The notes below the pieces were generated by a model. It saw nothing but the letters and a program-made list of their open reading frames with translations, was not told the DNA's origin and searched no databases. Positions 1 to 18,956 of a stretch of DNA of 20,155 nucleotides are shown in pieces. Within the stretch, counting starts at the first letter, position 1; each line of letters starts with the position of its first letter. A program made the position numbers and the translations under genes. The stretch spans positions 1 to 20,155 of the IMG/VR virus record IMGVR_UViG_3300048500_000006. One strand, given 5' to 3'. The DNA is from a virus.

Positions 1-2493
1 CCGATCGAAGTCGTTGGCAAACTCGACCTCGAAATTGCGATCCTTGTAGCCATAGCGCGGGGCGATCTTCGACAGGGGCTTGGAGAGGGCGAACGCGGCT
101 GGCTCGACCGGCTCTGCTGGGGCGGCTGGGGCGGCCGGGGCGGGGGCAGCCGGCCGCGGCTTGGCGAAGTCGAGATCCCTGCGCTCCTCTTGGGCGGCGC
201 GTTCGGCAGGCGTCAGCGGCGCGACAACTCGCGGATCCCCGGGGAAGAGCGGCTGATCTTCTGTCAGGCCGCGCCGCGCCCGTTCCGCGTCGATTTCGTC
301 GAGGATTGACGTCTGCTCGCGAGCCGCAGCGCTGCCCTCACGGAAGCCGGCGGCGCCCTCCGTGGCGGCCTGAAATTTCTCGTATCTGCGCTGCAGATCG
401 GTCGGCGGGCCCCCTGGTGGCCCCGGTGGCCCGGGCGGCTGGCCGGCGGGCGGTCCGAGCAGCTCGTCCACGTACTGTCCCATGACCGACTCGCGCTGCT
501 GCTCGGTGGCCTCCGGAGGCAGGGCGTCGAGCCGCTGCGTGAGGCCTTCGTGGAAGGCGTCCTCGCCCACCTTGGCCGTCGCCTGGAGGATGCGGCCGCC
601 AAGGTCCGCGGCGGGGGCTGCCGTGGCCCCTGCTGCGCCCGGAGCTCCTGGCGCACCAGCTGGGCCCGCCGCGGTCGGAGCGGCGCCTGGGGCGCCTGGC
701 GGCCCGGGAGGGGCGCCCGGAGCTCCCGGTGCGGCGGGCGCCGCCCCCGGGGTCCCCGGCGCTGGCGCGGCGGCGGCGACGATGGCCGCATTCTCTCGGG
801 CTTGCTGGAGGGCCGCGCCGCCGCCCGCCGCGACGCCCGGGCCGAGACTCACGGCAGCGGCCTTCACCGCCGAAGCGCCCATTTCCTCCCACTTCGCCAG
901 CTTCGGGTCGATCTCGTACAGCCGTGCGTTCTCAACCCCATCCTGATAGATTTGCTCGAGCACTTCTCCGGTCGGTTCGACCAGGGCAGCCTTTGCCCCG
1001 GCGCCGGTCGCGCTGCGCTGGGCCGCGTTCCGCGCGACCTGATTTCCGATGGCGTCACGAATCCGGGCCGACGCCGGCCCGACCATGACTTTCTCGAGGC
1101 CCCGGACGCCGATAATCGGAGCCAGAACGCCGCCCAGCATCGACGGCCACAGCGCGCGGTCGTGCGACAACCCCTCGACGAGCTGGGCGTGGGTTTTCTC
1201 AGGGGCGCGTTGCTTCGCCTCCTGATAGATCGGGTCGCGCTCCCACGCCGCTTTGGGGACTTCCTGCAACGCATGGCGGATCGAGTCGTAGGTTTCGCTG
1301 CCGAACTGCGTCCCGTAGGGGACGGACATTCCCGCGGTCTGTGCGGCGCCGAGAATCTTCGCCGCGCGCTCGCCGGTGATGACGCCAGCGCGCACCCGAT
1401 TCACGAGGATGGGAAGCGACGCGATCGCGGCTCCGGTGCCGCCGATCATGACGCCAGCGATGAGCGGGACCTGGTCGACGATCTCGAGCCCCAGCATTTC
1501 GGGGTAGTCCTTATAGAACTTCGCCTGCGCGGCGGCCCACGCACCGATGCCCTGGCCCTTCTGCGCCTGCAAGCGCTCCGCCTCGATCTTCGCGATCTCC
1601 TTCGTTCGCTCGGAGGCTTGCGTCGTCATGAAGGCGTCGCGTATTTCGGCGCTGCCCTTCTCGGTGAACAGGTAGCCGATCGAGTTGGGGTCGGCCTCGG
1701 TGTCCATCCCCATGCGCTCGGCGAGCCAGCGCATCCCGCGCCCCATGCCCACTGACCCGGAAGCGATGCGCCCCGACATTTCCTTGCCGAGCTCAATCCA
1801 CGTGCGTTGGGGTAGCTGCTCGCGCGGCACCGCCTCGTAGAGCTTGTCCTTGAACTCGCGCTGATCGGCCTTCTTCTTGTAGTACTTGTCGCCCCACGCC
1901 TCCCACTCGCGATACCAGTCGGCCTGGATCTTCTGGCGCGTTTCGACCGAGCCCGATTGATAGTCGGCCTCCGCGCGCCGCTGCTCCCACGTCTGCGTCG
2001 GGGCAACGGGCAGCGGCACGACGGCTGCGCCGGGGCGCCCGGGCGCGGCGGGCCGTGGCGCCTGCAGTTGCCCGGTCGCGCGCGCCCAGGCCGCGAGCTG
2101 ATCGTCGAGCGCAGTCGTCGCCGGCGCGCCGCCGGGCGCCACCATCGGTGCGGCGCCCGGCGCGGCTACTGCGCCTTCCGGCGCCTGCGGTGGGTATCCT
2201 TCCTGCCTGGGCTGGATTGCCTCCAGCGCCTCGCCGATCCTTCGGCTGCGCGCCTTGGCAGCGGCCTCGGCCTCCTCGAGCGAGTCGAAGCGGCCGAGCT
2301 CTGGATTGTCGCCGCGCTCCCACGCCGCGATCGCATCCTCGGTGGAGAGGCGCTGGCCGCCTACGATCGTGGGGATGTTGAAGTGCTCACCATCGGCCTC
2401 GATCGTGACGGAGAGCTCGGTTGAAACCGAGCCGTCCGCGTTCTCGAGCTGTTGGCGCTCGAGATCAATCGTCGCTTCGGTGCCGTTTGCCAT
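1..2493 (-). CDS. Giant internal virion / polyvalent protein, 3' end beyond window
   Basis: This frame is open for 831 codons from ATG at 2493 to the left edge without a stop, and I translated it codon by codon. Residues about 15-90 form a recognisable phage domain: DGSVST (20-25), PTIVGG (41-46) and LGRFDS (66-71), then an EEAEAAAKA helix. This domain occurs at the N-terminus of many phage internal or ejected proteins. Two hydrophobic stretches (about 341-364 and 452-463) could contact membrane. A Gly-Pro-Ala, collagen-like linker spans about 580-622, further PPG triplets lie near 686-694, and an Ala-Pro linker lies near 775-790. After that comes a new basic-aromatic segment (RYGYKDRNFEVEF) that resembles the start of another globular domain. 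There is no cysteine in the visible part. The start overlaps the transglycosylase stop by one base (TAATG). By position it is the counterpart of T7 gp16, minus the transglycosylase. What lies beyond residue 831 is unknown. Confidence 0.9.
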   Translation of the reverse strand, partial: MANGTEATIDLERQQLENADGSVSTELSVTIEADGEHFNIPTIVGGQRLSTEDAIAAWERGDNPELGRFDSLEEAEAAAKARSRRIGEALEAIQPRQEGYPPQAPEGAVAAPGAAPMVAPGGAPATTALDDQLAAWARATGQLQAPRPAAPGRPGAAVVPLPVAPTQTWEQRRAEADYQSGSVETRQKIQADWYREWEAWGDKYYKKKADQREFKDKLYEAVPREQLPQRTWIELGKEMSGRIASGSVGMGRGMRWLAERMGMDTEADPNSIGYLFTEKGSAEIRDAFMTTQASERTKEIAKIEAERLQAQKGQGIGAWAAAQAKFYKDYPEMLGLEIVDQVPLIAGVMIGGTGAAIASLPILVNRVRAGVITGERAAKILGAAQTAGMSVPYGTQFGSETYDSIRHALQEVPKAAWERDPIYQEAKQRAPEKTHAQLVEGLSHDRALWPSMLGGVLAPIIGVRGLEKVMVGPASARIRDAIGNQVARNAAQRSATGAGAKAALVEPTGEVLEQIYQDGVENARLYEIDPKLAKWEEMGASAVKAAAVSLGPGVAAGGGAALQQARENAAIVAAAAPAPGTPGAAPAAPGAPGAPPGPPGAPGAAPTAAGPAGAPGAPGAAGATAAPAADLGGRILQATAKVGEDAFHEGLTQRLDALPPEATEQQRESVMGQYVDELLGPPAGQPPGPPGPPGGPPTDLQRRYEKFQAATEGAAGFREGSAAAREQTSILDEIDAERARRGLTEDQPLFPGDPRVVAPLTPAERAAQEERRDLDFAKPRPAAPAPAAPAAPAEPVEPAAFALSKPLSKIAPRYGYKDRNFEVEFANDFDR
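628..756 (-). repeat. Collagen-like Gly-Ala-Pro linker in the giant protein
   Basis: Residues about 580-622 of the large internal protein are almost only Gly, Ala, Pro and Thr, with several Gly-X-Y triplets (GAPGAPPGPPGAPGA) broken by irregular spacing. Imperfect register suggests a flexible linker more than a true triple helix. A second shorter PPG run is encoded near 410-450. Confidence 0.7.
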
Positions 2494-3389
2494 TACGAGC
2501 GGTCAAGCATCTGCTCGAGCTCAGAGTCGTAGGTGGTGGGGAACGGGTCGGCCAGGTCCGCGAGCGGGCCGAACTGCGCGCGCAGATAGGCGTCCATCGG
2601 GTTCATGTGGTGGCGCACGTTGCGCGGCGAGGGCCGCGGCATGAGCTCGCCCTCGACTGGCGCCGCGCCCTCTGCCCCGCCTCCGGATTCCCCGCCTAGC
2701 GCGACTTCGGTGCCGGGCGCCGATTCCAGACCAGGCGCCGATTCGGGTGGGATCGGCGGCGCCTCTGGCGGCAGGGCAGCCGGCCCAGCGCCGGGCGCTG
2801 CCGGTGCCCCTGCGGTCGACGGCGCGGGCGGGCCGGGCACGTTCCCCGTGCGGAGATCGCGCGCGATGTCAGCCTTGGAGCGAAGGCCGAGCTTGCCTCT
2901 GACCGACCTGAGCGTTTCATCCGAAAGCACCGCCTTCATCAGCGGGTAGAGGGCGAGGGTGAACGCCGAAGGCGCGAGCATCTGCCCGTACTGGCGCATC
3001 CGAGCGAACACTTCGGGCACGTAGGCGAGCGTCTCGTCGGGGATGCGCGTGCCCCGCGGATTCTCCTCGAGCTGAGCGGCGCGCCTGGGCCCCCAATTAT
3101 AGGCGGCGAGCGCGAGGCCGAGATCGCCGAAGCGGTTGATCTGCTGCTTGAGATACGCGACCCCGCCCCTGATGTTCTGGATCGGGTCGTTCGGATTGGT
3201 CACGCCCATTTCACGCGCGGTGGCGGGAATGAGCTGCATCAGTCCGGCAGCGTCTTTCTCCGAGCGGGCCTTGCTCTGCCAGTTGCTCTCGACGTCGATC
3301 ATCGCCTTCACGAGCTGCGGCGGTACGCCCTGCCGTTGCGCCTCCGCCTCGGCGAAAGCCTCGAGCTCCTTGCGGGTCAGGTCGGCCAT
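2493..3389 (-). CDS. Lytic transglycosylase (SLT domain), virion-associated
   Basis: A 298-residue soluble lytic transglycosylase-like enzyme that should cleave peptidoglycan glycan strands, locally opening the wall during DNA entry. The SLT signatures appear in order: ES motif with probable catalytic Glu34 (MIDVESNW), GLMQL (49-53), GVAYLKQ (76-82) and AYNWG (96-100). The catalytic domain ends near residue 150. A helical segment and a Pro/Ala/Gly-rich linker (about 186-250) follow, then a C-terminal tail. It has no signal peptide and no cysteine, which fits a protein packaged in the virion, not one exported by the cell. A GGAG lies about 12 bases upstream of ATG, so the site is usable but long-spaced. 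It sits between the gp15-like gene and the giant protein. In T7 the same activity is fused to the N-terminus of gp16; here it is a separate gene. Confidence 0.95.
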   Translation of the reverse strand: MADLTRKELEAFAEAEAQRQGVPPQLVKAMIDVESNWQSKARSEKDAAGLMQLIPATAREMGVTNPNDPIQNIRGGVAYLKQQINRFGDLGLALAAYNWGPRRAAQLEENPRGTRIPDETLAYVPEVFARMRQYGQMLAPSAFTLALYPLMKAVLSDETLRSVRGKLGLRSKADIARDLRTGNVPGPPAPSTAGAPAAPGAGPAALPPEAPPIPPESAPGLESAPGTEVALGGESGGGAEGAAPVEGELMPRPSPRNVRHHMNPMDAYLRAQFGPLADLADPFPTTYDSELEQMLDRS

Positions 3390-3404
3390 GCTGGCGTTAC
3401 TCCA

Positions 3405-4745
3405 CTATGCGGCCGTGATCGGTTGCTGCGTCTCCTGCGGCGTCGGGATCAGCGCGGCGATCTGACGGCGGAGGTTCTCGTGCATCGTCTGATTGACCGT
3501 CGTGTTCCCGCCGGGCTGCTCGATGAGTTTCGCGAGCTCCGTCGCCTGCTTGCTCAGGCGCTCTATCGCCACCTGTTCGTCAGCGGTCAACTTGTCGTAG
3601 GCGTCGCTTATGTTCATCAGCTTCTTCTGCCGCCGGTTGAACTCGTCGAGATCCTGCTTCTGCTTCGGCGTGACCGCGCTGGGCGCAGGCCGCCCGATCG
3701 CGGTGCCGACGCCCTCGGCCGGGGTCTTGGGCACTTCCTTGGCTGGGCGCGCAGGAGCGGGCGCACGCGGCGCCGCCGGCACTCGCGGGGTCGTCGCGCG
3801 TGGTTGCCCGCGCGCCGGCGCAGGCTCCGCGATGCCGAGTAGGCCTGGGAGCTGGTAGCCGATCCAGTTGCGGTTGTTCGCATCGACGGAGAGGAACCCG
3901 TTCTCGATCGGCACCTTGTTCATCACGGGCTGGCCGTTCGCATCGGTGGTCTGATCCACCTTGAACAGTTGCCAGGCCACGATCTTCTGCCCCGTGGCCT
4001 TGTCGACCCCCTCGACGCGCTCGACCATGAGATTGCGGCCGTAGCGCTCCAAGTACAGGTTCATCGTGTCGGCGTCGCCAGCCTTGGCCGCTCCGGTGAG
4101 CGCGCGAAGCGCGTGCTGGTCGCGCTGCCGTTGAAGTAGGGCCTTCGTCTCAGGCGCTGTCGCCTGGTCGATCGCGCGGTCGGCGCGTTCCCACGGATCC
4201 GCCCGGGCCGCACTCGGGTCGGCGCGCAGCGCCTCCCGCTCGGCCGTCTCGCCCGCCTGTAGGAGTTGCTGCGCTTCGGTTGTCGCGCGCTGCTGCGCCT
4301 GCAAGGCCTCGTAACTCCCGGCGGCGAAACCCGCCTGGCCGGCGCGTGCTTTCTCGGCGGTAGCCTCGCCACCGATCCGGACGTCGACGCGCTCTGGCGT
4401 GTACCTCGCCTCCTGTTCGCGGAGGCGCTCGTCGACGGTGCGTTCACGGCTCTGCTCCTCCATCTGATTGCGAAGGGACTTGCCGTAGTCGATCGTGAGC
4501 TCCTTGCGCCGCTGCTCCTGGCGCATACCAGGCAGCGACTCGAGCGCGCCGATCTTCGCCTCAGTCTCCATGCCGGAGAGGCGCGCGGCGGGAAGGTTCT
4601 GCAGCTCGAGGATCTGATTGGCGAGGCGCTCGCGCCGAATCTGCTCGTCGTTCTTCTCGCGCGTCTGGCCCCTCTCGATCCCGTATTCATACCCTTTGAC
4701 AATGTCCATCGGGTTGAAGCCGTAGAGGATGCTGTCGATCGCCAT
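3405..4745 (-). CDS. Coiled-coil internal virion protein (gp15-like position)
   Basis: A 446-residue, highly charged, mostly helical protein without cysteine. Residues about 15-200 are rich in Glu, Arg, Gln and Ala with heptad-like character. About 215-310 looks like a mixed globular domain ending in a sequence around NRNWIGYQLPGLLG. A Pro/Ala/Arg-rich linker follows (about 315-355), then a helical C-terminal region. AGGAG lies 6 bases before ATG. No enzyme motif is visible. Its place between two gp14-like genes and the transglycosylase matches T7 gp15, a helical protein of the internal core that is ejected into the periplasm. The assignment rests on position and composition, not on recognised homology. 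Confidence 0.88.
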   Translation of the reverse strand: MAIDSILYGFNPMDIVKGYEYGIERGQTREKNDEQIRRERLANQILELQNLPAARLSGMETEAKIGALESLPGMRQEQRRKELTIDYGKSLRNQMEEQSRERTVDERLREQEARYTPERVDVRIGGEATAEKARAGQAGFAAGSYEALQAQQRATTEAQQLLQAGETAEREALRADPSAARADPWERADRAIDQATAPETKALLQRQRDQHALRALTGAAKAGDADTMNLYLERYGRNLMVERVEGVDKATGQKIVAWQLFKVDQTTDANGQPVMNKVPIENGFLSVDANNRNWIGYQLPGLLGIAEPAPARGQPRATTPRVPAAPRAPAPARPAKEVPKTPAEGVGTAIGRPAPSAVTPKQKQDLDEFNRRQKKLMNISDAYDKLTADEQVAIERLSKQATELAKLIEQPGGNTTVNQTMHENLRRQIAALIPTPQETQQPITAA

Positions 4746-4754
4746 GAGCGTCTC

Positions 4755-5600
4755 CTATGGTCCTTGTGGCGACAACCCGGCGCCGTACTCACCGCCGAAG
4801 GTGTTGTTGCCGGCAAGCGGTTCGTTCGGCGCGGGCGCGGGCGCGTCAGGCTGCGTCGAAGCAGGCGCGTTGCTCGCGTTGTAGGCGTCTGAGCCGGCCG
4901 TCTCGCGCTGCGCCAGCTCTGAGTCGGACATATACCCCTGCTGTGCCGCCGCAGCGACCTGCGCCCGCTCGATGCCGCCGAACACGTCGCTGGTGAACCG
5001 CTTGCCCTCCTTGGTGTTGAGGAAGCCAAGGAACTGCGACCAGCCGGCCAGCGTCTTGCCCTGCTCCGCGCCGAGCTGCGCGCCGATCGCACCGGCAATG
5101 GCGGCCGCGCCGAGCGCGTTGGAGAGCAGGTTGCGGCCCAGCCCCAGGTAGGCGTAGATATTCTCGATGCGTTTCTGATTGCGCTGAATCTCGAGGTTCT
5201 GCCCGCGCCGGTAGCCCCACTCGCTCGCGTCGATCGCGGCGGTGGCCTCGAGCGCGGCGATCACGTTGCAGTCCTGCGCCATCTTGCCGACGTGGTAGAC
5301 GTTCTGCCCGCGGTAGAGCATCTGGCGCTTGCGGCCCACCGTTCTGATGACCTCGAGCCGCTGGCGCCCGGCGATCGTTGCCGACGGCGCCACGTACACC
5401 GGGATCGCGCAGACCTCCGTGATCGCGGCGGCATCGCATTGCGCGTAGTAGGCTTTCCAGTGATCGTGGAGCGAACGCGAGACGCTCGTCGCAAGCTCGA
5501 CCGCCGCGAGCGATGCCCCGGCGGCGACTGAGCCGTTACCGCTGCTCGTCGCGCCGCCGATCGCGCCACCGATTGCTGCGCCCGCCGAGAAACAGCCCAT
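4755..5600 (-). CDS. gp14-like internal virion protein, copy B
   Basis: A 281-residue protein beginning MGC followed by a small-residue hydrophobic stretch (GAAIGGAIGGA). It is collinear with the gene directly upstream over about 210 residues: LHDHWKAYY (44-52), AAITEVCAIPVY (58-69), DCNVIAALEA (110-119), WGYRR (128-132) and EGKRF (198-202) match LHEHWKNFY, AAITEVCAVPVY, DCNFLSGVEA, FGFRR and EGKRF there. The C-terminal 70 residues differ and are Ala/Pro/Asn-rich. T7 gp14 also starts Met-Cys with a hydrophobic N-terminus and forms an outer-membrane channel on ejection, so a similar role is inferred. The upstream stop and this start are adjacent (TAGATG), with GGGGAAAGA as ribosome site. A further glycine-rich hydrophobic stretch lies near 160-176. 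Confidence 0.9.
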   Translation of the reverse strand: MGCFSAGAAIGGAIGGATSSGNGSVAAGASLAAVELATSVSRSLHDHWKAYYAQCDAAAITEVCAIPVYVAPSATIAGRQRLEVIRTVGRKRQMLYRGQNVYHVGKMAQDCNVIAALEATAAIDASEWGYRRGQNLEIQRNQKRIENIYAYLGLGRNLLSNALGAAAIAGAIGAQLGAEQGKTLAGWSQFLGFLNTKEGKRFTSDVFGGIERAQVAAAAQQGYMSDSELAQRETAGSDAYNASNAPASTQPDAPAPAPNEPLAGNNTFGGEYGAGLSPQGP

Positions 5601-6464
5601 CTATCTTTCCCCCGTGAAATTCATCGCGTAGTCGGGGAGCCCGATCCTGTTGTTGAGATTGCCGCCGTCGGACGCCATTTCGCCTTGAACGACCGGCGTG
5701 GGGGCGGGGAGCGCCAGGGGGCTGCGCGAAACACCCTGCTCCTTCGTCATGGCAAACGAGTAGTCGATCGTCGTCGCCTCGCTCGTCGCGGCGCGCCGAG
5801 TCGGGCTTTCCGGTTCCCCCTTGAACAGCCCGCGGATGCCGCCGAGCGTGTCATCGGCGAAGCGCTTGCCCTCTGGCGAGCCGAGGAAGCCGGCGAACTC
5901 GAGCCAGCCCTGCGTCGGGCTTCCAAGCCATCCCTTGAGCGCGTCGCCGAGCTTCGCCGCGAGCTGAGCGGCATCGGACGACGTCTTGAGCAGCCCACGG
6001 CCCAGCGCCAGGAACGAGCGCTTGTTCTCGAGCCGGATCTGATCGAGCTGCTCCTTCACGCCCTCCTCTCGGCGGAAACCGAAGTTCATGGCGTCCACCG
6101 TCGCCTGCGCTTCGACACCGGAGAGGAAGTTGCAATCCGCGTTGGTGACGCAGAAATGCTCCTGGCACGTCGCGATCATCAGGCGCGCCCGGCCGAAGTC
6201 GCGAAGCGCGGCGCCGGCGACGCGGGCCTGCACCGTCGCGTAGGCCGGCGCGTACACCGGCACCGCGCAGACCTCGGTGATGGCTGCAATATCGCAGGCC
6301 ATGTAAAAGTTCTTCCAATGCTCGTGGAGCTGCCGCGCGACGAGCGTTTGTAGCTCCGCCGCCTGGCGCTGGGCGTCGGAAGCCTTCTTCGCGGCGTCGT
6401 TCTTCTTCTTCGACCCGAAAAGGGAGACGGCAGCGCCGACGACCCCTAGTGCGACGCAGGCCAT
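5601..6464 (-). CDS. gp14-like internal virion protein, copy A
   Basis: A 287-residue protein beginning MACVALGVVGAAVSLFG, a short hydrophobic segment, then a Lys-rich patch (19-27). Its core is AAITEVCAVPVY (60-71), with six cysteines in all, including TCQEHFC (99-105) and ADCNF. It is a tandem paralogue of the next gene, collinear to about residue 210. The tail after 215 is unrelated and ends NFTGER. Its position after the GNAT-like gene corresponds to T7 gp14. The start at 6464 overlaps the upstream gene by 19 bases and has only a weak GGGA upstream, so coupled translation is likely. Membrane insertion is inferred from the N-terminus only. Confidence 0.9.
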   Translation of the reverse strand: MACVALGVVGAAVSLFGSKKKNDAAKKASDAQRQAAELQTLVARQLHEHWKNFYMACDIAAITEVCAVPVYAPAYATVQARVAGAALRDFGRARLMIATCQEHFCVTNADCNFLSGVEAQATVDAMNFGFRREEGVKEQLDQIRLENKRSFLALGRGLLKTSSDAAQLAAKLGDALKGWLGSPTQGWLEFAGFLGSPEGKRFADDTLGGIRGLFKGEPESPTRRAATSEATTIDYSFAMTKEQGVSRSPLALPAPTPVVQGEMASDGGNLNNRIGLPDYAMNFTGER

Positions 6465-6961
6465 AAATTCATCCCGTACATGACTTCGAGCTCCTCGAGC
6501 CCGAGATCCTGCCAGAGTTGTGCGGCCGCCGAGTCCCGCGGGGCGGACACGATCAGGGCGTGCACCCCGAGCGCCTTGAGATAGTTGATGCCGATGGTCG
6601 CGAGACGCCGAGCGTCAACGCCTTTGCGGTAGCCCCCGTTGACAGCGACCGAGATCCCGACCACCTTGCCCTGCTCCCATGTGTACGGGTTGAGCATCCA
6701 CAGCTGATAGCCGAGGAGTGTGTCGCCGCGCTTCGCCGTGAGCATGATGAGCTGACGCCGCACGAGCGCGACCGCGATGCCCTCCCAATCGGGACTGAGC
6801 TTGAACCCGAGCTGGTAGTTGTACTTGCCAATGCGCTCGGCCATGATCGGGATGATCTGCTGCCAGAGCGACACCGCGGCCTCGAGATCGGCCGGGTCCT
6901 CGATCTGGTAGGTCACATCCGCCTCGACGAAGGCGACTGCGACTGCGCTATCCGTTGACAC
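6446..6961 (-). CDS. GNAT-fold-like protein (gp13 position)
   Basis: A 171-residue protein whose C-terminal half looks like the GNAT acetyltransferase core: strand VVGISVAVN (100-108), YRKGVDARRL (111-120) where acetyl-CoA binding is expected, helix to LKALGV (128-133), a strand, then DSAAAQLWQDLGLEELEVMYG (the beta4-alpha4 pattern). The usual R/Q-x-x-G-x-G/A loop reads RKGVDA, so the pyrophosphate loop is degenerate and activity is doubtful. No cysteine is present. The start is GTG: CAC at 6959-6961 has GGAGG six bases upstream, and no ATG fits better. The gene overlaps both neighbours. It lies between the propeller tail protein and gp14-like genes, the place of T7 gp13. A structural or assembly role is as likely as catalysis. 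Confidence 0.87.
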   Translation of the reverse strand: MSTDSAVAVAFVEADVTYQIEDPADLEAAVSLWQQIIPIMAERIGKYNYQLGFKLSPDWEGIAVALVRRQLIMLTAKRGDTLLGYQLWMLNPYTWEQGKVVGISVAVNGGYRKGVDARRLATIGINYLKALGVHALIVSAPRDSAAAQLWQDLGLEELEVMYGMNLWPASH

Positions 6962-8603
6962 TCGAGGCCTCCGTCTTTGCCGCGTCGAAGATGGACGTGC
7001 CCACCGTGAACTCGAACACTTCCGCGGTGCCCTTGATCTCGACCGCGCCGATGCGCGCGTTCTGCCCGCCCTTCACCCTGAAAAACTCCGAGTGATCGAC
7101 CTGGCGCTCGAACACGCGCCCGTAGTCGGTGATGAGCGCGAAACGCACGCGGCCCGCCGCCTCCCGATTCACAGCCGCGGTGTTGAGCGAGGTACGCCGC
7201 GGGAAGGTCACATCCGAGCATTGCCAGGTGTAGTCGCGGAACCGATCGCCGCCGTTCCAGTGCAACACTTGACGCCCTACCGCGTAGTAGAGCTCGCCGT
7301 CTGCCGCGGTCCAGATCGCAGCCGGCCGCTCGGAGAGGTTCGTGTAGCCGATCTCCTGAATCGTCGCGAACTCCTGATCGAGCGTGCGAAGCCGGATCCC
7401 CTCGACGTCGGTGTAGCCGTGATAGTAGCCCTTGCGGACGTGCCCGATCATTCGGTTCGGGTGCAGCTCCTGCCAGTCGCGCTCGGTCAGGCGGGCTTGG
7501 CTGATGATCTTCGCCTCGCCGCCGGCGAGCGCCACGAGCCCATCCTTCGATGCGTAGTAGGCGGCGCTGGTGTCGGCCGCCATGCTGCGGAAGGACACGC
7601 ACGGCAAGGGCACGCGCGTCCCCTTGACCGGGGTCACGCCGTTCGAGTTGGCGGGATCGGACAGATCGACCACGTAGGGGCGCGTGTCGGTGGCGACGTA
7701 GAGCGCGCCTCCCACCGCGCCCAGCGCGATCGGCGTGCCGTAGAAGCGCTTGACGTAGCGCAGCGGCCAGGCGTGCGGGGAGTGGGGCTCGCAGATCCAG
7801 ACATCGTTGCCAGAGATCCCGGCGAGAAAGCCGTTTTCGGCGGACACGATGCCGTGCAGGTCCGCGGGCGGGGGCAGGTATTCGTCGGTCACGAACACGC
7901 CCTGCGCGCCGTCGCCGAGCTCGAGCTCGGTCTTGTCGTCGAGGTAGGCCGTGGTGGCGACCGGGAGCTCCTCCACGAGAAAATACTCGGTGTTCTGCGG
8001 GTTCGATTGCTCGAGCCCGGTTTCGTAGGCAGTCGCCAGCCGGTAGAGCCGGATCGACACGACGCACCATTCCGCGGATGGCGCGGCGAAGCCTTGCACG
8101 AGGATCGGCTGGCCGTCGTTCGCACGGATGATCTGCGAGGGCGGCGAGCCCGGGCCCTCGCGGCCGTGCCGGTTGACGTAGGTGTAGCGGTAGGCGCGCG
8201 CCGCCATCGTCTCGCCATCGACCACCGCGACCTGGCTGGAAAGCGTCGGCGCCACTGGCGGGCACGGCACGCCGAGCCTGCACCAATCTCCGGCGCAAGC
8301 CTCCTCCGCCGTGGCGATCTGCGGGTAGGCGGCGGCGCCGGTCACGATGACCTGGCGGCACGACGGCGTGTAGGGGAACACGGCGTCAACGCACTTATCC
8401 CACGTGAGCCAGCAGCAGTCGGCGAGGATGAAGGAGAGAACGTCCTGTGCCGCCTCGTGAACGAGCCGCGGCGTGCGCCACGGCCGCAGGCTGTTGTTGT
8501 CGAGATCGACGTCGAGCGCGACCGCAGCGGACCCGGGCGGCCTCGCGAACGGGTTGAGCCGTGGAACGCGGCCTTGAGGGCGGGCGACGTTGATCCCGCT
8601 CAT
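6948..8603 (-). CDS. Beta-propeller tail protein (nozzle-like)
   Basis: A 551-residue protein with the hallmarks of a widespread phage tail protein family. It carries SLRPWRTPRLV near the start (38-48), the YRYTYVNRHGREGPGSP segment (138-154), a NGFLAGISGNDVWICEPHSPHAWP-type motif (257-280), then LPCVSFRS, YYASKDGLVAL and the TERDWQELHP motif typical of propeller blades. In podoviruses such proteins build the tail tube tip below the adaptor. It has eleven cysteines, clustered before residue 115. The frame stays open upstream to 9497, but the real start is ATG at 8603, which overlaps the previous stop as ATGA. There is no good ribosome site there, so translation probably depends on coupling. 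By order it matches T7 gp12, though it is shorter. Confidence 0.92.
   Translation of the reverse strand: MSGINVARPQGRVPRLNPFARPPGSAAVALDVDLDNNSLRPWRTPRLVHEAAQDVLSFILADCCWLTWDKCVDAVFPYTPSCRQVIVTGAAAYPQIATAEEACAGDWCRLGVPCPPVAPTLSSQVAVVDGETMAARAYRYTYVNRHGREGPGSPPSQIIRANDGQPILVQGFAAPSAEWCVVSIRLYRLATAYETGLEQSNPQNTEYFLVEELPVATTAYLDDKTELELGDGAQGVFVTDEYLPPPADLHGIVSAENGFLAGISGNDVWICEPHSPHAWPLRYVKRFYGTPIALGAVGGALYVATDTRPYVVDLSDPANSNGVTPVKGTRVPLPCVSFRSMAADTSAAYYASKDGLVALAGGEAKIISQARLTERDWQELHPNRMIGHVRKGYYHGYTDVEGIRLRTLDQEFATIQEIGYTNLSERPAAIWTAADGELYYAVGRQVLHWNGGDRFRDYTWQCSDVTFPRRTSLNTAAVNREAAGRVRFALITDYGRVFERQVDHSEFFRVKGGQNARIGAVEIKGTAEVFEFTVGTSIFDAAKTEASSVNG
6968..6972 (-). promoter_or_regulatory. GGAGG ribosome binding site fixing a GTG start
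   Basis: On the minus strand GGAGG is followed by a 6-base spacer and GTG at 6961. This is the only strong site at the head of this frame and decides the GTG start of the GNAT-like gene. Confidence 0.75.
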
Positions 8604-9454
8604 ACGTTGATCTGCAGCGATGCGGCCGTGCTGTCGAGAACTTCGCGCCAGCCCACGCCCTGAATGAAGATCCAGAACTCGCGCGGGTTCACCGTGCCGA
8701 CAACGCCCATCGTCTGCCCGTTCTGCGGCGGGTTGTTCAAGAGCAGCGCCGTGTTGGCGAGCTGCGCGCCAAAGCCGCCGAGGTTGACGTTGGGCACGCC
8801 AGCGCCAGCCACCATATCGAAGCTGCAGCCGTCGACCGACCGGAACAGCGTGATGCTGCCATCCGACGACGTCAGGTTGAGCAGCGGCTGGAAGGGCAGC
8901 GGGAGGCTCGTGACCAGCCCGTTCTGGATGACGATACCGCAGCCGACGAAGTTGACGCCCCCGCTCGCCGGGGTGTCGGAGACGTACAAGCCGTTGTTGC
9001 GGCACTGCACCGCGTTCCCGGCGTCGGGCGAGATCGTCAGTCCGATCTGGAATGGCGCGAGCGCCGTCCCGCAGCCGCTCACGGCCACGCACGAGCTCGT
9101 GGGCAGGATGAAGGCCCGCGTGAGCAGCGCGCCGTTCGTGTCGAGCGTGGTGAGGTTGCACGCCTCGCCCGAGATCGTAACGTCTGCGGTGGTCGGCGGC
9201 GTAGGGGGGACCACGCAGGGATCGCACGCCGAATAGACGACGTTGGTCCCTTCGGTGAGCTCGACGATGCAACCGCCGACCGTGCGAATGGTCGCGTTCG
9301 CGTAGACACCGTCGGGGATCGGGTTCGAGATCGGCGCCTCGATGATCCGCCCGCTGTCGAAACGCAGCACGCGGTTGCCAGCGCACCACTCGACCGGCGG
9401 GGTCACGGTCGCCGCCGGCGTGGTGCCGCCGTTGGGTGGGCAGCACTCGTTCAT
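8600..9454 (-). CDS. Cysteine-rich virion protein, fibre-like
   Basis: A 284-residue protein beginning MNECCPPNGG with twelve cysteines spread over the chain. The sequence is beta-rich with Gly/Asn/Thr turns, which suggests a beta-structured fibre or tail appendage. The C-terminus has NPREFWIFIQGVGWREV, an aromatic strand pattern seen at ends of trimeric fibres. It lies between an adaptor-like gene and the propeller tail protein, with ATGA overlaps at both ends, and AGAGGG precedes its ATG. I do not recognise a named family. The opening resembles in style the CxxC-type starts of the two fibre proteins at 14950-17594, but I see no clear alignment with them. Confidence 0.85.
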   Translation of the reverse strand: MNECCPPNGGTTPAATVTPPVEWCAGNRVLRFDSGRIIEAPISNPIPDGVYANATIRTVGGCIVELTEGTNVVYSACDPCVVPPTPPTTADVTISGEACNLTTLDTNGALLTRAFILPTSSCVAVSGCGTALAPFQIGLTISPDAGNAVQCRNNGLYVSDTPASGGVNFVGCGIVIQNGLVTSLPLPFQPLLNLTSSDGSITLFRSVDGCSFDMVAGAGVPNVNLGGFGAQLANTALLLNNPPQNGQTMGVVGTVNPREFWIFIQGVGWREVLDSTAASLQINV

Positions 9455-10161
9455 ACAACCCTCTGAGCTGTGGCGCGGAAGGGCCCGCGCGATTCACCGA
9501 TGAGCGCGTCGGTCGCGCCGCGCGCCTGGCCGATCTTGAAATCGCGCTCGTACTTCGCCGCGAGCTGCGGGTTGCTCCAGTCCTGCTTGGGCTGCATGAG
9601 GAGATACCCGGCCGCCCCCGCGACGAGCGTCATCAGGTAGCGATCGAACAGCACGCGGTCGAGATCGCAGGCGTCCCGCTTCGGCGCGACGTTGAGGCTT
9701 ACGCGCAGCGCCCCCTGCGTGTCCGCGCGCACCGGGGAGCGCACGAAAAGCGAGTTGGGCTGCTGGAACCACAGCGACAGCCACGCGATCTGTAGCGGCG
9801 CGGTCCCGGTCTGCTGCAGCGGGCCGCCCTCCCACGCGCCGGCGCACAGGCACGGGCAGTTGAGCTGGCAGGGCTGATTCGGCCGCAGGTAGTGGCGTTG
9901 GCCTCTGGCGTCGCAGATGAAGTCGATCGAGACCGTCCGCATCGAGTCCGAGTCGGGCGGCTCGAGCAGGTACTCCTGCACGTCGCATTGCAGGTCGACG
10001 AAAACCTCACGCTTCACCACCGCTGAGCGCTCGCAGAACTCGATCGCCGCGTTGCGGACGTAGGCCTCCGCGATGTCGCTCGGCACGCCGTTGGCGATCA
10101 TGCGGAGCTCGGGCAGAAACTCCGCAAGCGCGACCTTGTCGGGGACATCGCACAGTCTCAT
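9451..10161 (-). CDS. Adaptor-like virion protein 2
   Basis: A 236-residue protein with an N-terminal helix pair ending in DIAEAYVRNAAIEFCERS (29-46), a motif I associate with phage head-tail connector-type proteins. A beta-rich middle follows that carries a tight cysteine cluster (CQLNCPCLC, about 98-106), then a C-terminal helical region (LMTLVAGAAGYLLMQPKQDW). Nine cysteines is high for this size. It overlaps both neighbours as ATGA. It follows another adaptor-like gene, so the pair may form successive rings or partner subunits. The tail-tube connection is inferred from order. The CxxxCxCxC cluster could bind metal or form disulfides, and sequence alone does not decide between them. Confidence 0.87.
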   Translation of the reverse strand: MRLCDVPDKVALAEFLPELRMIANGVPSDIAEAYVRNAAIEFCERSAVVKREVFVDLQCDVQEYLLEPPDSDSMRTVSIDFICDARGQRHYLRPNQPCQLNCPCLCAGAWEGGPLQQTGTAPLQIAWLSLWFQQPNSLFVRSPVRADTQGALRVSLNVAPKRDACDLDRVLFDRYLMTLVAGAAGYLLMQPKQDWSNPQLAAKYERDFKIGQARGATDALIGESRGPFRATAQRVV

Positions 10162-10850
10162 CGGGTCCTCCCCGCGGGTTCGACGTTCGACGACTGCGCC
10201 GGCGCGATGAGCGACACGTCGGCGCGGGTGGTGAGGCCGAGGATGTTATTCCACGCGCCAATGTGCGAATTGTAGAGCGCGAGCTGGGCCTGATCGCTGT
10301 CGAGCTGGTAGGCCTGCGCGATCACGTAATGGCGGACCAGCGCGTACTGCCAGCAGTCGACCGGCGCCTGCGCGTTGAGATCGGCAATCCCGAGCTGCGG
10401 CGGCGCGTCAACGCACACGATCCGCACCTTGTACGCCTTCCCCGGCGGGGTGGGCGGGGCCACGTAGAACGTGTCGCGTTGCTTCGGGTCCTGGCTGTAG
10501 TCGAGGACGCGGTAGGACTCCGTAGACACCACGCACGATGGCCGACCCCAGGCGAGTTGCGCCCTGCGGCTGACCGGGTTGATCGGGCTGAGATCCTCGC
10601 CTTGCGGGCCGAGGTTGGCGTCGACCGATTTCAAAAGGCAGCCCTCGCCGATGAACTGGCGAGTCCCGGGCTGCAGGGTGAAGTCGCGCGAGCGGGTGAA
10701 CAGGTCGGGACGGATCCGGTGCAGGATGCACAGGCCCTCGTTCCAGTACCCGAGCAACTGCTCGCGCGTGAACTGCGTGAAAGCGTGGCCGGGCTCCGCG
10801 TCGCGAAGATCGACCGCGATGAGTCTCAGCTTGTCAGCCAGCGTTTCCAT
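10158..10850 (-). CDS. Head-tail adaptor-like protein 1
   Basis: A 230-residue protein that begins with a helix (METLADKLRLIAVDLRD) and FTREQLLGYWNEGLCILHRIRPDLF. This is the pattern of podovirus adaptors in the T7 gp11 / DUF6682-like group, where N-terminal helices pack on the portal. The middle is beta-rich (RRAQLAWGRPSCVVS, KRDTFYV-type strands, KVRIVCVDAPP). The C-terminal helices YALVRHYVIAQAYQLDSDQ and LYNSHIGAWNNILG complete the family layout. Five cysteines are present. The start overlaps the upstream gene by 17 bases with only a weak GGCGG site. Family membership is my recognition of the pattern, not a search result. Confidence 0.88.
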   Translation of the reverse strand: METLADKLRLIAVDLRDAEPGHAFTQFTREQLLGYWNEGLCILHRIRPDLFTRSRDFTLQPGTRQFIGEGCLLKSVDANLGPQGEDLSPINPVSRRAQLAWGRPSCVVSTESYRVLDYSQDPKQRDTFYVAPPTPPGKAYKVRIVCVDAPPQLGIADLNAQAPVDCWQYALVRHYVIAQAYQLDSDQAQLALYNSHIGAWNNILGLTTRADVSLIAPAQSSNVEPAGRTR

Positions 10851-11250
10851 CGCCGCCTACGTGGGCCCGTGCTTTCGCCGCTGGCTTGTTGCCTTTGCGA
10901 TGCGGCCTGCGGGATTGCTCCGTAGCAGGGAGGACCGGCGGCGCTGGGGCTTGAGCGGTTGGCGAGAGCACGGGTTGAGACGAAGGAACGCGCTGCCCGT
11001 AGTGAGCGAGATCGAGCGGGCTGTTGGCGACAACGATCCCTGGTTGCGGTGGTGCCTCCCAGCACGACTCGAGCACGTCCCCGAGGGGGCGCATCCAGTC
11101 CTGCCAGAAGTGGATCATGCCGGTCAGCTTCTCCCGAACGTATGGACTCGGCTCGAGATACTGAGGCAGCTTCGCCCCAATCGCATCGGCGTCATCCTTG
11201 GTGGGCAGCCGCGCAGAAACCTGCAGCGGCCGCGCCGTCACTTCGCTCAT
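10834..11250 (-). CDS. Unrecognised small virion-region protein
   Basis: A 138-residue protein with a short globular N-terminal half (SARLPTKDDADAIGAKLPQYL, then REKLTGMIHFWQDWM) and a disordered, Pro/Ala/Arg-rich tail from about residue 85. AAGGAGG lies five bases before ATG, one of the best ribosome sites here, so the gene is well supported. It stands between the capsid companion and adaptor 1, where small head-completion or stabilising proteins occur in other phages. No motif identifies it. Confidence 0.8.
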   Translation of the reverse strand: MSEVTARPLQVSARLPTKDDADAIGAKLPQYLEPSPYVREKLTGMIHFWQDWMRPLGDVLESCWEAPPQPGIVVANSPLDLAHYGQRVPSSQPVLSPTAQAPAPPVLPATEQSRRPHRKGNKPAAKARAHVGGDGNAG

Positions 11251-11273
11251 ACGGTCCTCCTTACGGTTGGTTA

Positions 11274-11287
11274 AACCCTTACGGGTT
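11274..11287 (-). other. Hairpin with GUAA loop over a stop codon
   Basis: The minus strand reads AACCC-GTAA-GGGTT, a 5-base-pair stem with a GNRA-type tetraloop. The TAA stop of the upstream gene falls in the loop. It precedes the strong AAGGAGG of the next gene. No U-run follows, so it is not a classical terminator. It may be chance or a message-stability element. Confidence 0.3.
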
Positions 11288-11887
11288 GGCGATCACGCAG
11301 GGACCATTCAGGCGGCAATTCGCCACCGTCACGGTTTCCAGGTCACGCGCAACGGCCGTCAGCTCGATGCGCCCGCGGAACGACGGCAAGCCGTTCACGG
11401 GCAGCGTGGTGAGCACAAGGCCGATACGGATGCCCTCGCGACCGCTGGGGCCGTAGGGCTGCGTGTAGAGCATGGGAGAGATTTGCGCCCACACCGAAAG
11501 CAGCGCGTTCGCGTTGAGGCCGGTCAAGCTCACGGGGAGCACGATCGGCGTCGTCACGGCGGTGCCGCAATCTTCGAGGGTGATGGTTTCGGCAACCACG
11601 CTGAACGTGATCTGATTGATCGCGTCCGGTTCCGACACCTTCACGCGGATCCCCTCGAGCAGAGCGTCCTCGGGGATCAGCGCCAGCCAGAGCGTGTCGC
11701 CGGCGAGGAGCAGGTCGTAGCAGACCTGATTCGTCGGATCGCACTGGTAGTCGAAGGCCGCGCCCATGTTGTAGGGCGCGCGACGGCGGTGAGCTGCCAT
11801 CTTGTGCGGAGCGGGGCAAATCGAGACCTTGCACTCGCCGCAGTCGGGGAGGAATGCCGTGCCACCTTCCCACAGGTTTACATCCAT
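11279..11887 (-). CDS. Cysteine-rich capsid-companion protein
   Basis: A 202-residue protein encoded directly after the capsid gene. It starts MDVNLWEGG and has a cysteine cluster CGECKVSIC (16-24), eight cysteines in all. The rest is beta-rich with hydrophobic strands (TLWLALIPED, QITFSVVAETI, GIRIGLVLTTLP, GRIELTAVARD). Position and fold style suggest a head decoration, capsid-stabilising or second head protein, but no family is recognised. AAGGAG lies seven bases before ATG. A 10-base direct repeat flanks this site, so a second ATG lies upstream in another frame. The gene ends in a small hairpin. Confidence 0.87.
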   Translation of the reverse strand: MDVNLWEGGTAFLPDCGECKVSICPAPHKMAAHRRRAPYNMGAAFDYQCDPTNQVCYDLLLAGDTLWLALIPEDALLEGIRVKVSEPDAINQITFSVVAETITLEDCGTAVTTPIVLPVSLTGLNANALLSVWAQISPMLYTQPYGPSGREGIRIGLVLTTLPVNGLPSFRGRIELTAVARDLETVTVANCRLNGPCVIANP

Positions 11888-11910
11888 GATGTTTCTCCTT
11901 CATCCATGAT
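11881..11910 (-). repeat. 10-base direct repeat around a ribosome site
   Basis: ATCATGGATG occurs twice (minus strand, 11910-11901 and 11890-11881) on either side of AAGGAGAAAC. The downstream copy holds the true start of the capsid-companion gene. The upstream copy opens a 9-codon frame ending at 11878 that lacks its own ribosome site. Confidence 0.7.
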
Positions 11911-11947
11911 TGCGGACGGGTTTTCGCGGCCCGCCGGAAGGAAGTGG

Positions 11948-11965
11948 GGTGCGCCGCGCCGCACC
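11948..11965 (-). other. Hairpin in the capsid-companion gap
   Basis: GGTGCG and CGCACC pair around a 6-base GC-rich loop, a few bases after the capsid stop. The 84-base gap (11888-11971) is the longest non-coding stretch in the window. No U-run follows, so a partial attenuator or a 3' stability hairpin for capsid message is more plausible than a full terminator. Confidence 0.35.
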
Positions 11966-11971
11966 GTGGTT

Positions 11972-12916
11972 TTACGGTTGCACCGTCCAGTAGCCGACTG
12001 CGAAGCCGTCGGGGTGCACGGGCTTGTGGCCCCACACGCCCAGGACTTCGAGCAGCTTGTACCATCCGTCGCCCTGCCGGATCCTCGTGATGATGAGGTT
12101 TTGCGCGAACAGCAGCGCATCCTTGTTGAGAGCGATGACGTAGAACACGGATTTCCCCGCGGTCGCGTCGGTGCCCTGGCAGGCGTAGTTGCTGATGACG
12201 AAGTCCCAGCCCATCATGTTCGTGTACCACTCCCCGGACATGAGAGGCGAGCACTCGACGCAGCGCCCCATCTGCAGGGCGTTGGCGAGAGGCGAGGCCA
12301 TCAGGATCGGCAGCATCGCGGGCGGCACGACGAGGATCATCTTGCCCTTCTGCCACGCGCACGCTTCCGCGAGTACCTGCTGGATCTTCGCGATCTCGCC
12401 GATGACGTTTGCCGGCGTGATGAGGACCGGAGCGCCCGGGCAGCCGAGATTGACCGCACCGCTCGTACCGGCCGCGCATCCCTTGTTCCGCATCGAAGCG
12501 TAGAAGGGCAGGCGCCGCATGATGTCGTTGGAAAGCAGCTTGTCCCAGCCGCGCGTCACCGCGACGTCGAACATTTCCTTCCACATCGACCACCGCTCGC
12601 ACAGCATCCGCTCGTCGAGCTCGTCGACCTTCACGCTGACGTAGGCGGCGTCGCAGATGCGGAAGCAGAACGCATCGGGCTTGGCCTCCTGGGGCGTGTT
12701 GACCTGGTTCTTCTCGAACGGCATGAACTCGAGCTCGAAGTTGCGAACGAACTGGATCTCCTGGCTGCAGTAGTCGATCTCCTTGTTGTACATCCCGTTG
12801 GTGAACAGCGAGAAGATCCCATCGCAGTGGTAGTCGTAGGCGATCGTGCGAGCGTACTTCCGCCGACCGAGAGGCGATTCTTCGAGGGATCGCCAGCCTG
12901 ATGCACTTGGTACCAT
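11972..12916 (-). CDS. Major capsid protein (probable)
   Basis: A 314-residue protein directly after the scaffold-like gene, the conserved place of the capsid gene in podoviruses. It has mixed alpha/beta character with aromatic-rich conserved-looking stretches (YDYHCDGIFSLF, NFELEFMPFEK, ILVVPPAMLPILM, TNMMGWDFVISN). The C-terminal strand region LVPP-to-YWTVQP is the sort seen in HK97-fold and P22-like coats, but I cannot assign the subfamily. It contains eleven cysteines, unusually many for a coat protein that folds in the cytoplasm. The start at 12916 has GGAGG six bases upstream. Capsid identity rests on position, size and the lack of any better candidate in the window. Confidence 0.85.
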   Translation of the reverse strand: MVPSASGWRSLEESPLGRRKYARTIAYDYHCDGIFSLFTNGMYNKEIDYCSQEIQFVRNFELEFMPFEKNQVNTPQEAKPDAFCFRICDAAYVSVKVDELDERMLCERWSMWKEMFDVAVTRGWDKLLSNDIMRRLPFYASMRNKGCAAGTSGAVNLGCPGAPVLITPANVIGEIAKIQQVLAEACAWQKGKMILVVPPAMLPILMASPLANALQMGRCVECSPLMSGEWYTNMMGWDFVISNYACQGTDATAGKSVFYVIALNKDALLFAQNLIITRIRQGDGWYKLLEVLGVWGHKPVHPDGFAVGYWTVQP

Positions 12917-12930
12917 TTACGGCCTCCGTT

Positions 12931-13968
12931 TCATTGACGTTTGGACCGGCGCCACGATTCAATCTGTTGCTTGTCGTAGAGCGCCTTGAGCTTGCGGTAT
13001 TGCGCCGGCTGGATCGCCCCCTCCTTGAGCTGCTGCATGGCGGCCGCAAGGGTTTCCTCGTCGACCACGGGCTCAGGGGTGGGGGTGCGCGGCGCCTGAT
13101 CTGGCGCGGGTCGACCGTGATTGACCGGCTCATTGTCGACTGCCCTCGGGGCTCCACGCAGCTTGAAGTCCTTGACGACGTCGCGAATGTAGTCGACGTC
13201 GCCCTCCCGCCATGCGGCGAGAACCTGGGATCGCCGATCCACGCGCGAGCCCTGGATGACTTCGGTGAGAAAGTCCTTGAAGTCGGGACGCTCGAGGAGC
13301 TTTCCGAACTCGGGCACGTCGCGTTGAATCGCCCGCTCGTTGAGATCCTTGCGAAGATCAGTCACGGCTTTGTCGGACTCGGCCTTGACCTGGTTCACAC
13401 GCTTCTCAACCGCTTGGTCGATCCGCGCCTGAATTGAAGTCTCGAGCCGCTGCAAATGGGGATGGAAGCCCCGATAGATTTCCCCGAACGCCTCCCGATC
13501 GACGTGCTCGCCCTCGAATCCGGCGACCGCCTGGGTGACGTCACGCTCCGCAGCCTGCTTGGCGACCGTCTCCTCGAGCTTGCGATTCGCTTCCGCGAGC
13601 TCTTGGTTACGCTTCTCCATGAACTCCTTGTTCGCGAGTGCTGCCTTCGCGATCTCCTCGGCTTCACGTCGACCACGGTTCTCCGCGTCGAGCCGGCCCA
13701 GCAGCGTGTCGTGCTGCGAGACGAGCATCTGCGCGTACTTCGGGTCGAGTGGCGGCAGATCGTCGTCCTGCCGGTCGGCAGGGGACGAGGCGGGGGCATC
13801 GGCTGGCGGATCGTCGGATAGCGCGGAGGCCGGGAGCGGCGCGTCTGCCGGCGCGTTGGGCGCGGGCGGCACAGCTGCCTGAGCATTCGCTAGGGTGGCG
13901 ATACGTTCGGCTTCGTCCCTCGCTGCATCTGCGAGAGGGTGTCCTGGTTGCGGGTTACGTGGGGGCAT
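12931..13968 (-). CDS. Scaffolding protein (probable)
   Basis: A 345-residue, very charged, cysteine-free protein. Residues 1-75 are Pro/Ala/Asp-rich and likely disordered. About 80-150 is a strong coiled coil (ENRGRREAEEIAKAALANK and on). The middle is helical with further Gln/Glu/Lys repeats. The C-terminus is a basic helix pair (YRKLKALYDKQQIESWRRSK), like the coat-binding tail of scaffolding proteins of P22 and T7 type. It lies 14 bases before the capsid gene, the typical scaffold-capsid order. GGAG precedes the ATG by 6 bases. A 65-base gap separates it from the upstream gene. Confidence 0.88.
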   Translation of the reverse strand: MPPRNPQPGHPLADAARDEAERIATLANAQAAVPPAPNAPADAPLPASALSDDPPADAPASSPADRQDDDLPPLDPKYAQMLVSQHDTLLGRLDAENRGRREAEEIAKAALANKEFMEKRNQELAEANRKLEETVAKQAAERDVTQAVAGFEGEHVDREAFGEIYRGFHPHLQRLETSIQARIDQAVEKRVNQVKAESDKAVTDLRKDLNERAIQRDVPEFGKLLERPDFKDFLTEVIQGSRVDRRSQVLAAWREGDVDYIRDVVKDFKLRGAPRAVDNEPVNHGRPAPDQAPRTPTPEPVVDEETLAAAMQQLKEGAIQPAQYRKLKALYDKQQIESWRRSKRQ

Positions 13969-14033
13969 TGCGTTCTCCTATTCGCGGGGGCTTACGCCAG
14001 CCGCAGGTTGTGTTGAAGGATGAAGATTCGCGA

Positions 14034-14384
14034 TCACGACTTCCGGGTGGTGAAACCCTTGGCCTGGCTCGTTTTTTGCAAACCGCTGGCGCCGCCCTCG
14101 TTCGGGTCGCGCGCCGGGATCCCGCCGAGCGGGCTCACGGCCGGCGTCATTTCGTAGCCGGTCACGAGCTTCTCGCCGTAGTTCTTGCCGCTGTTCGTGT
14201 CCGATGGCACTGAGTTGGGCGTGTTGCCCATGTTGGCGCCCGTCGCCTGCTTCGGCGGGCCCTTCTGCAGCACGCCCGACTTCGTCCCGTTCGGCCCGGT
14301 ATCGCCCGAGCGCATCCGGCGCATTGTCGAAGCGGTGCCGGCGTCGCTCTCGTGGCTGTGAAAGTAGCCGACGTTCATTCCCAT
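14034..14384 (-). CDS. Small disordered unknown protein
   Basis: A 116-residue Gly/Ser/Asn/Thr-rich protein with little predicted order. The N-terminus MGMNVGYFHSHESDAG is followed by Arg/Met-rich MRRMRSG and a basic C-terminus. No cysteine and no known motif. GGAG lies seven bases before ATG. It is the last of three small genes before the scaffold. Small basic, flexible proteins near scaffold genes may act in head assembly, but nothing here shows a function. Confidence 0.78.
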   Translation of the reverse strand: MGMNVGYFHSHESDAGTASTMRRMRSGDTGPNGTKSGVLQKGPPKQATGANMGNTPNSVPSDTNSGKNYGEKLVTGYEMTPAVSPLGGIPARDPNEGGASGLQKTSQAKGFTTRKS

Positions 14385-14408
14385 AGCTTTCTCCTTTCGG
14401 GTGGTGGG

Positions 14409-14708
14409 TCAGACTTTCTCGTAGTGGCGCCCGGTGTTGGGCGGGCACCCCTCGCTTATCATCGCGGCGACGCTGTTCGTGCCCGCCGCGTTGCGGATCG
14501 GGGGCAGCACGGTCTGATTGTTCTGCGGACCGTAGTGGGACGGCTCGAGCGCCTCTTCGACATCGTACTCGTAGACGTTCTCGCCCATGCGGACCTTCTG
14601 CGCGAAGTACCACAGGCCGACGTCCTCGAGGCAGGGGACGCAGTCGGCTTTCATCGGCTCCATTGGCATCAAGTCCGGTGGCATCGTTCTCGAATTGCGG
14701 GCCATCAT
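14409..14708 (-). CDS. Small CxxC protein of unknown function
   Basis: A 99-residue protein with a Met-rich N-terminus (MMARNSRTMPPDLMPMEPM), a CVPC pair (23-26), a helix with acidic and aromatic residues (DVGLWYFAQKVRMGENVYEYDVEEA) and a third cysteine near the end (88). The first ATG (14708) overlaps the previous stop as ATGA, with AAGGAG just upstream; a second ATG follows at once. The CxxC could be a redox or metal site, or a disulfide-linked virion feature. No family is recognised. Confidence 0.8.
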   Translation of the reverse strand: MMARNSRTMPPDLMPMEPMKADCVPCLEDVGLWYFAQKVRMGENVYEYDVEEALEPSHYGPQNNQTVLPPIRNAAGTNSVAAMISEGCPPNTGRHYEKV

Positions 14709-16137: not shown

Positions 16138-16142
16138 TTCAC

Positions 16143-17770: not shown

Positions 17771-17779
17771 CGGCGTCTC

Positions 17780-17950: not shown

Positions 17951-17960
17951 GTTCCTCTCC

Positions 17961-18128: not shown

Positions 18129-18133
18129 GATGG

Positions 18134-18139
18134 CCTCCT
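18134..18139 (-). promoter_or_regulatory. AGGAGG ribosome site, decides a start
   Basis: AGGAGG with a 5-base spacer to ATG at 18128 shows that the small gene begins there and not at the ATGs upstream in the same frame. It directly follows the upstream stop (TGAGGAGG). Confidence 0.75.
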
Positions 18140-18950: not shown

Positions 18951-18956
18951 CTTCGG

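Follow-up and report, generated by a model that had tools for sequence, protein, structure and literature searches.

The closest described systems are the DarB-like giant proteins of Bcep22-type phages (DC1 gp67, Pavtok gp27, Skulduggery gp28, and JC1 gp69), whose genes take the last structural position after an internal virion protein and an acyltransferase. These giants were annotated as transglycosylase/helicase/methylase or DarB-like proteins in DC1, Pavtok, and Skulduggery, and mass spectrometry of purified virions detected the JC1 homologue gp69 (PMC9144972). The polyvalent proteins are a further point of comparison; zincin-like MPTases are their commonest domain and were proposed to process the chain (Iyer et al. 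2017, PMC5512222). The virion RNA polymerase of N4 (gp50, ~3500 aa) is packed in the head and injected along with the DNA, and the absence of cysteine in N4-like virion RNA polymerases was noted and explained by tail passage (PMC3915230; also PMC4837373). In T7, gp15 and gp16 are internal virion proteins, and gp16 has a transglycosylase function.

The window, which is the whole stretch of DNA analyzed here, is a complete public record of 20,155 bp. One frame of 831 codons occupies 1..2493 on the minus strand, with its ATG at 2493 and without a stop codon through base 1. The initial annotation had described this frame as running off the left edge after 831 codons, and the same frame was found here. 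Because it is read from right to left and the record stops at base 1, the missing end is a property of the data. This frame quite probably represents the 5' portion of the gene for a giant, virion-packaged ejection protein ("polyvalent," DarB-like) of a Bcep22-type podovirus. The earlier assignment to an ejection/polyvalent-type protein agrees with the gene order, the adjacent transglycosylase gene, the N-terminal homology to the giants of Pavtok, DC1, and a further phage giant (G008), and the complete lack of cysteine.

The adaptor, major-capsid-like (11972..12916), and tail-fiber genes all lie upstream of the giant on the minus strand. On the same strand, the gene of an internal virion/structural protein (6948..9497, read from 9497 to 6948; 849 aa) matched phrog_511 (E 2e-98), a marker of the Bcep22-type module. 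It is followed by a 171-aa ORF (6446..6961, minus) with a weak acetyltransferase match (phrog_1249, E 0.003), at the position of the acyltransferase gene of Bcep22-type phages. Further along, a 446-aa ORF (3405..4745, minus) and the gene of a soluble lytic transglycosylase (SLT; 2493..3389, minus; 298 aa, PF01464 E 1.2e-25) precede the giant, which reads from 2493 to 1. In the structural module, the giant is thus the last gene seen, lying downstream of the gene for the phrog_511 protein, and the window ends to its left.

The catalytic ES motif expected of an SLT is retained (VESNW, residues 33–37), and the stop codon of the SLT gene overlaps the ATG of the giant by one base (TAATG). Transglycosylase activity at the front is shared with the Bcep22-type giants. 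However, the transglycosylase is fused at the N-terminus of the giant in DC1 and Pavtok, whereas the window has a separate 298-aa gene overlapping the start of the giant. The 446-aa ORF has a position comparable to the Cys-free genes before the giants of DC1, Pavtok, and Skulduggery, and it probably encodes a co-ejected protein. In those phages, the Cys-free pre-giant genes were gp64 and gp66 of DC1, gp24–26 of Pavtok, and gp25–27 of Skulduggery (loci L002, L004, and L007), and their products may also be co-ejected.

Other genes of the window showed features of their own. The ORFs at 4755–5600 and 5601–6464 (minus) are tandem paralogues; both match a single gene (46947–47486, ~53%) in one relative, G001, and two genes in G005 and G002. 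Two adjacent tail-fiber genes at 14950–16137 and 16143–17594 (minus) are paralogous to each other. The ORF at 19019–20155 (minus) lacks a PHROG match. Sequences resembling it occur at about five different sites in each of G001 and G005, and this pattern suggests a multi-copy gene family. The capsid-like protein shows 76–89% identity to its counterparts in relatives that mostly reach 30–60% in their other genes, and 9 of its 11 cysteines are kept in all complete relatives compared.

A search with the internal virion protein retrieved Bcep22-type and related podoviruses. Six named phages (Burkholderia DC1, Erwinia Pavtok, Pseudomonas Skulduggery, phage P27, Aeromonas phiARM81mr, and Achromobacter CF418P1) end their structural module with a giant gene of 2684–5007 aa. 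The DNA of the left 12 kb of the window gave no near-identity match to phage records. Scans based on the major-capsid-like protein, which served as the query for syntenic relatives, found three contigs with the whole structural module (G001, G002, and G005). Their complete giants have 2648, 2447, and 2502 aa, respectively, and an SLT gene is located directly before each. Neither the capsid alignment nor the giant alignment found a match in scans of bacterial genomes, and thus no evidence for prophages or a host was obtained.

Residues ~160–563 of the window giant aligned with the N-terminal regions of the three kin giants, and the G001 giant was 30% identical over 639 aligned columns (E 1e-61). 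A profile of the N-terminal core, made from the window giant and its kin, matched G008 at 59.3 bits, compared to at most 11.3 for the locally shuffled or reversed control. The same profile matched residues 381–606 of Pavtok at 40.3 bits (control ≤9.0) and residues 397–595 of DC1 at 17.5 bits (E 9.5e-8; control ≤2.3). These homologies indicate that the separate SLT gene, followed by the window frame, matches the order of parts at the front of a Bcep22-type giant. Methylase and SF2 helicase domains like those of Bcep22-type giants would fall outside the contig, and neither is visible in the window giant.

The visible 831 residues consist of a small N-terminal domain, an ejection core, and the start of a further module, and they have no Pfam match. 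The N-terminal domain (residues 7–91; 2221..2475, minus; DGSxSTE..IPTI..) is 58% identical in G001 and recurs in two phage contigs (L065 and L069) that also bear the further module. The ejection-type core (residues 164–563; 805..2004, minus) is the region homologous to the N-terminal regions of the G001/G002/G005, G008, Pavtok, and DC1 giants. Two moderately hydrophobic stretches were confirmed at residues 332–373 (1375..1500, minus) and 448–471 (1081..1152, minus), with peak Kyte-Doolittle values of 1.80 and 1.36, respectively. They had been called membrane-like segments, but they look like the amphipathic or glycine-rich stretches of ejection proteins rather than clear transmembrane helices.

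Low-complexity linkers rich in Pro, Ala, and Gly were found at residues 88–129, 136–175, 565–630, 668–705, and 774–809. The Pro/Ala/Gly-rich linker of residues 565–630 corresponds to 604..801 (minus). By composition, the linker of residues 668–705 (379..492, minus) is Pro/Gly-rich, and that of about residues 774–800 (94..174, minus) is Pro/Ala-rich. The initial annotation had regarded the linkers as collagen-like. This was not upheld, because the longest uninterrupted G-X-Y repeat in the 831 residues has five triplets (610–624). The likeness to the kin giants was lost past about residue 630. Direct look-ups of the giant returned no relatives among viral contigs or phages, searches of PHROGs and Pfam gave 0 matches, no convincing match was found in the PDB, and the 40-residue tail had no real match among phages and plasmids. 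None of the catalogued polyvalent domains (MPTase, LPD, ART, or helicase) was detected by Pfam within the visible 831 residues.

At the left edge, a module that we call the PRYGY module begins at about residue 801 (FALSKPLSKIAPRYGYKDRNFEVEFANDFDR; residues 801–831, bases 93 to 1, minus strand), and the edge cuts it after ~31 of its ~82 positions. A new domain had been proposed from near residue 808; the domain is real, and its start was moved to ~801. The tail of the window giant scored 13.4 bits against the module model (i-E 3.3e-6), whereas the best of 2000 shuffled tails scored 1.4 bits. This was a fair test of the tail, since the model was made from only four database sequences, none of them recruited through the window giant.

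The distribution of the module was followed with two sequence patterns. A degenerate-codon pattern for PR[YF]xYxDxNF led to five viral loci, in which the peptide opens a module of ~80 aa. In a tblastn search with the sequences of those loci, the module was found in four phage records: Sphaerotilus phage vB_SnaP-R1, Prochlorococcus P-SCSP2, Macromonas BK-30P, and MedDCM-OCT-S31-C1. A second pattern from another part of the module matched 85 loci. Recruitment was partly circular, in that the columns PRYGYxDxNF (L027–L031) and FxxDxDxAAYI (second set) were selected for. The module is carried by ~90 phage contigs (L027–L035 and L039–L120), mostly in very long ORFs, and most module-bearing ORFs exceed 1000 aa, even when truncated.

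AlphaFold predicted the module with a pLDDT of 89.6 as a short helix, a beta hairpin, and three helices. No Pfam model covered it in the proteins scanned, in a comparison that excludes the LPD alignments of Iyer et al. 2017, and the PDB gave neither a sequence match nor a fold match (best E 1.6). In the viral structure library, its four best matches were giant phage proteins (E 3e-4 and TM 0.87 for the first), two of which were annotated with a large polyvalent-protein-associated domain. The segment RYGYKDRNFEVEF had been likened to the borders of polyvalent phage proteins. This held true, as it is the start of a real module present in polyvalent giants, including G008 with its helicase and ADP-ribosyltransferase. 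The module was absent from the giants of G001, G002, and G005 and was not found in those of DC1, Pavtok, and Skulduggery. Since its three closest relatives lack the module, the window giant has parted from them at the very point where the cargo starts.

In the T7-like Sphaerotilus phage vB_SnaP-R1, the module lies in the internal virion protein, and a similarly placed, unnamed protein carries it in Prochlorococcus phage P-SCSP2. Unlike in T7, the transglycosylase and the giant are separate proteins in the window, and the giant has no direct homology to gp15 or gp16. No sequence homology to N4 gp50 was shown either, and no polymerase is present in the window giant. It is conceivable, though unlikely, that the PRYGY module acts as a so far uncharacterised signal for packaging or ejection, portable across very different cargo proteins: T7-type internal virion proteins, zincin/LPD38 giants, and helicase/ART giants.

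The regions that follow the module were compared in other phages. Among 19 module-bearing giants, Pfam matches were to LPD38 (3), SLT (2), and PBECR3 nuclease, RadC, methyltransferase, and others (1 each), and PHROG matches included the portal type (5) and the T7-gp16 type (4). In the complete L063 giant, the module (687–763) is followed by HExxH at 889 and by LPD38 (E 1.6e-13). Its C-terminal half, LPD38 included, matched the kin giants at E 3.5e-46, and the capsid protein of its contig is a distant match (E 5.8e-5). The complete G008 giant (4871 aa) has an N-terminal region like that of the window giant, the module at 998–1078 of the open frame, and ddrB-ParB, Strawberry-notch helicase, RadC, and ART-PolyVal domains, which it shares with polyvalent proteins (PMC5512222). 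In L030, the module precedes a methylase-like motif and a Strawberry-notch-type helicase. In L031 it closes a 774-aa protein as its final domain, and in L029 it lies within an 869-aa protein. The PRYGY module therefore does not identify the cargo, because different cargoes follow it in L063, L030, and G008, and none follows in L031.

The kin giants of G001, G002, and G005 contain two conserved HExxH motifs and share zincin-like (MPTase) and LPD38 regions with the polyvalent proteins (Iyer et al. 2017, PMC5512222). A profile of their first HExxH region matched Pro-Pro endopeptidase (PPEP) chains at E 6.7e-5, and an M34-like domain with HExxH and a downstream Glu is present in them; for the window giant, any such region would lie beyond the contig. 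The fold model of the zincin region was mediocre (pLDDT 61.6), and its best PDB fold matches were lethal factor and PPEP, at E 0.1 or weaker. We lean slightly toward an unseen part that comprises, in this order, the rest of the PRYGY module, a zinc peptidase of the lethal-factor/Pro-Pro-endopeptidase type, and an LPD38-containing C-terminal half, as in G001, G002, G005, and L063. Cutting of the proline linkers by the lethal-factor/PPEP-like peptidase of the kin was also considered; Pro-Pro pairs were not enriched over shuffled linkers, and this was left as a bare idea.

Instead of the zincin/LPD38 set, the cargo could be DarB-like, with a methylase and helicase and possibly an ADP-ribosyltransferase, acting in early counter-restriction and host modification. 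This is the main alternative, possible though rather unlikely. It is consistent with G008, which combines the window-type N-terminal region and the module with the domains listed above, with L030 and its same type of helicase, and with the DC1 giant, which carries SLT, methylase, helicase, LPD3, and LPD38. However, the contigs most closely related in their capsid, internal virion protein, and SLT sequences (G001, G002, and G005) carry the zincin-like/LPD38 set, and the module of L063 itself precedes a zincin-like motif and the kin-type C-terminal half.

It is improbable that the gene ends soon past the edge, as an ejection protein of ~900 aa with the PRYGY module last and no enzymatic cargo. 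The 774-aa protein of L031, with the module at its very end, and the 869-aa protein of L029 would be precedents for such a short product, but all three syntenic relatives have genes of 2447–2648 aa at this position, and the majority of module-bearing ORFs, truncated ones included, are longer than 1000 aa.

The cysteine content of the window was also compared. Cysteine was absent from the 831 residues of the giant and from the SLT, 446-aa, and 171-aa genes. The remaining genes had ~118 cysteines in ~4745 residues (about 2.5%), and the fibers had 3.9–5.8%. Nine of the 11 related giants had 0 Cys (G001, DC1, CF418P1, Pavtok, P27, phiARM81mr, Skulduggery, G008, and L063), which together with the window fragment amount to ~32,500 residues. 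The exceptions were G002 with one cysteine and G005 with three. N4 gp50, of which all but ~160 residues were read, and T7 gp15 and gp16 were likewise Cys-free, and most, not all, other virion proteins of T7 and N4 contain cysteine. The T7 scaffold and the N4 major head protein are Cys-free though not ejected, and 31% of the other long ORFs of module-bearing loci had zero cysteine. The absence of cysteine is therefore supporting evidence only, because some non-ejected proteins also lack it.

As a separate observation, cysteine was partitioned along the window (1–9497 vs. 9451–20155), with 3.5% in the capsid-like protein and 3.9–5.8% in the fiber and neighboring genes. These Cys-rich capsid and fiber genes are well above the 0.3–2% that is typical of the majority of genes in the reference phages used for comparison. 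The 345-aa ORF at 12931–13968 also has 0 Cys and is possibly a scaffold.

A surface or fiber protein, in which a collagen-like stalk and membrane segments would be displayed outside the virion, might be suggested by the P/G-rich linkers, the two hydrophobic stretches, and the separate tail-fiber genes of the window. It is most implausible, given the lack of a long G-X-Y repeat, the absence of cysteine in the giant against its abundance in the fiber genes, the location of the gene behind SLT as the module ends, and the homology to internal giants, not fibers.

For the preferred reading of a virion-packaged ejection protein, we read gene order, coupling, homology, the module, and composition from the sequence, and we infer packaging, passage, and function. 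Delivery into the host has indirect support from the Cys-free composition and from the detection of JC1 gp69 in virions. Points that weigh against this reading are the divergence from the three closest relatives at the module, the giant's lack of PHROG, Pfam, or convincing PDB matches, and the mediocre model of the zincin region. The SLT and the giant would be produced together late in infection and then packaged. At infection, the SLT would open the peptidoglycan, and the giant would thread through the tail or an ejection conduit alongside the DNA. Such threading would favor a Cys-free, flexibly linked chain that is able to unfold. The N-terminal part of the giant might help to form or anchor the conduit, and the C-terminal cargo would act in the cytoplasm of the host during the first minutes. 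A zinc peptidase of the lethal-factor/PPEP type in the unseen part may process the chain.

These results bear on how huge proteins are chosen for packaging and pass the narrow tail during phage protein injection, and they offer three handles on it. The part that cuts peptidoglycan is encoded apart from the giant, in a gene coupled to it. Unrelated injected giants share a widespread module whose fold is predicted with confidence and which has no counterpart in Pfam or the PDB. The strict avoidance of cysteine in these giants could help to predict ejected virion proteins. If the PRYGY module is indeed a portable signal, it would be a common "address label" of injected phage proteins, for capsid loading and tail passage.
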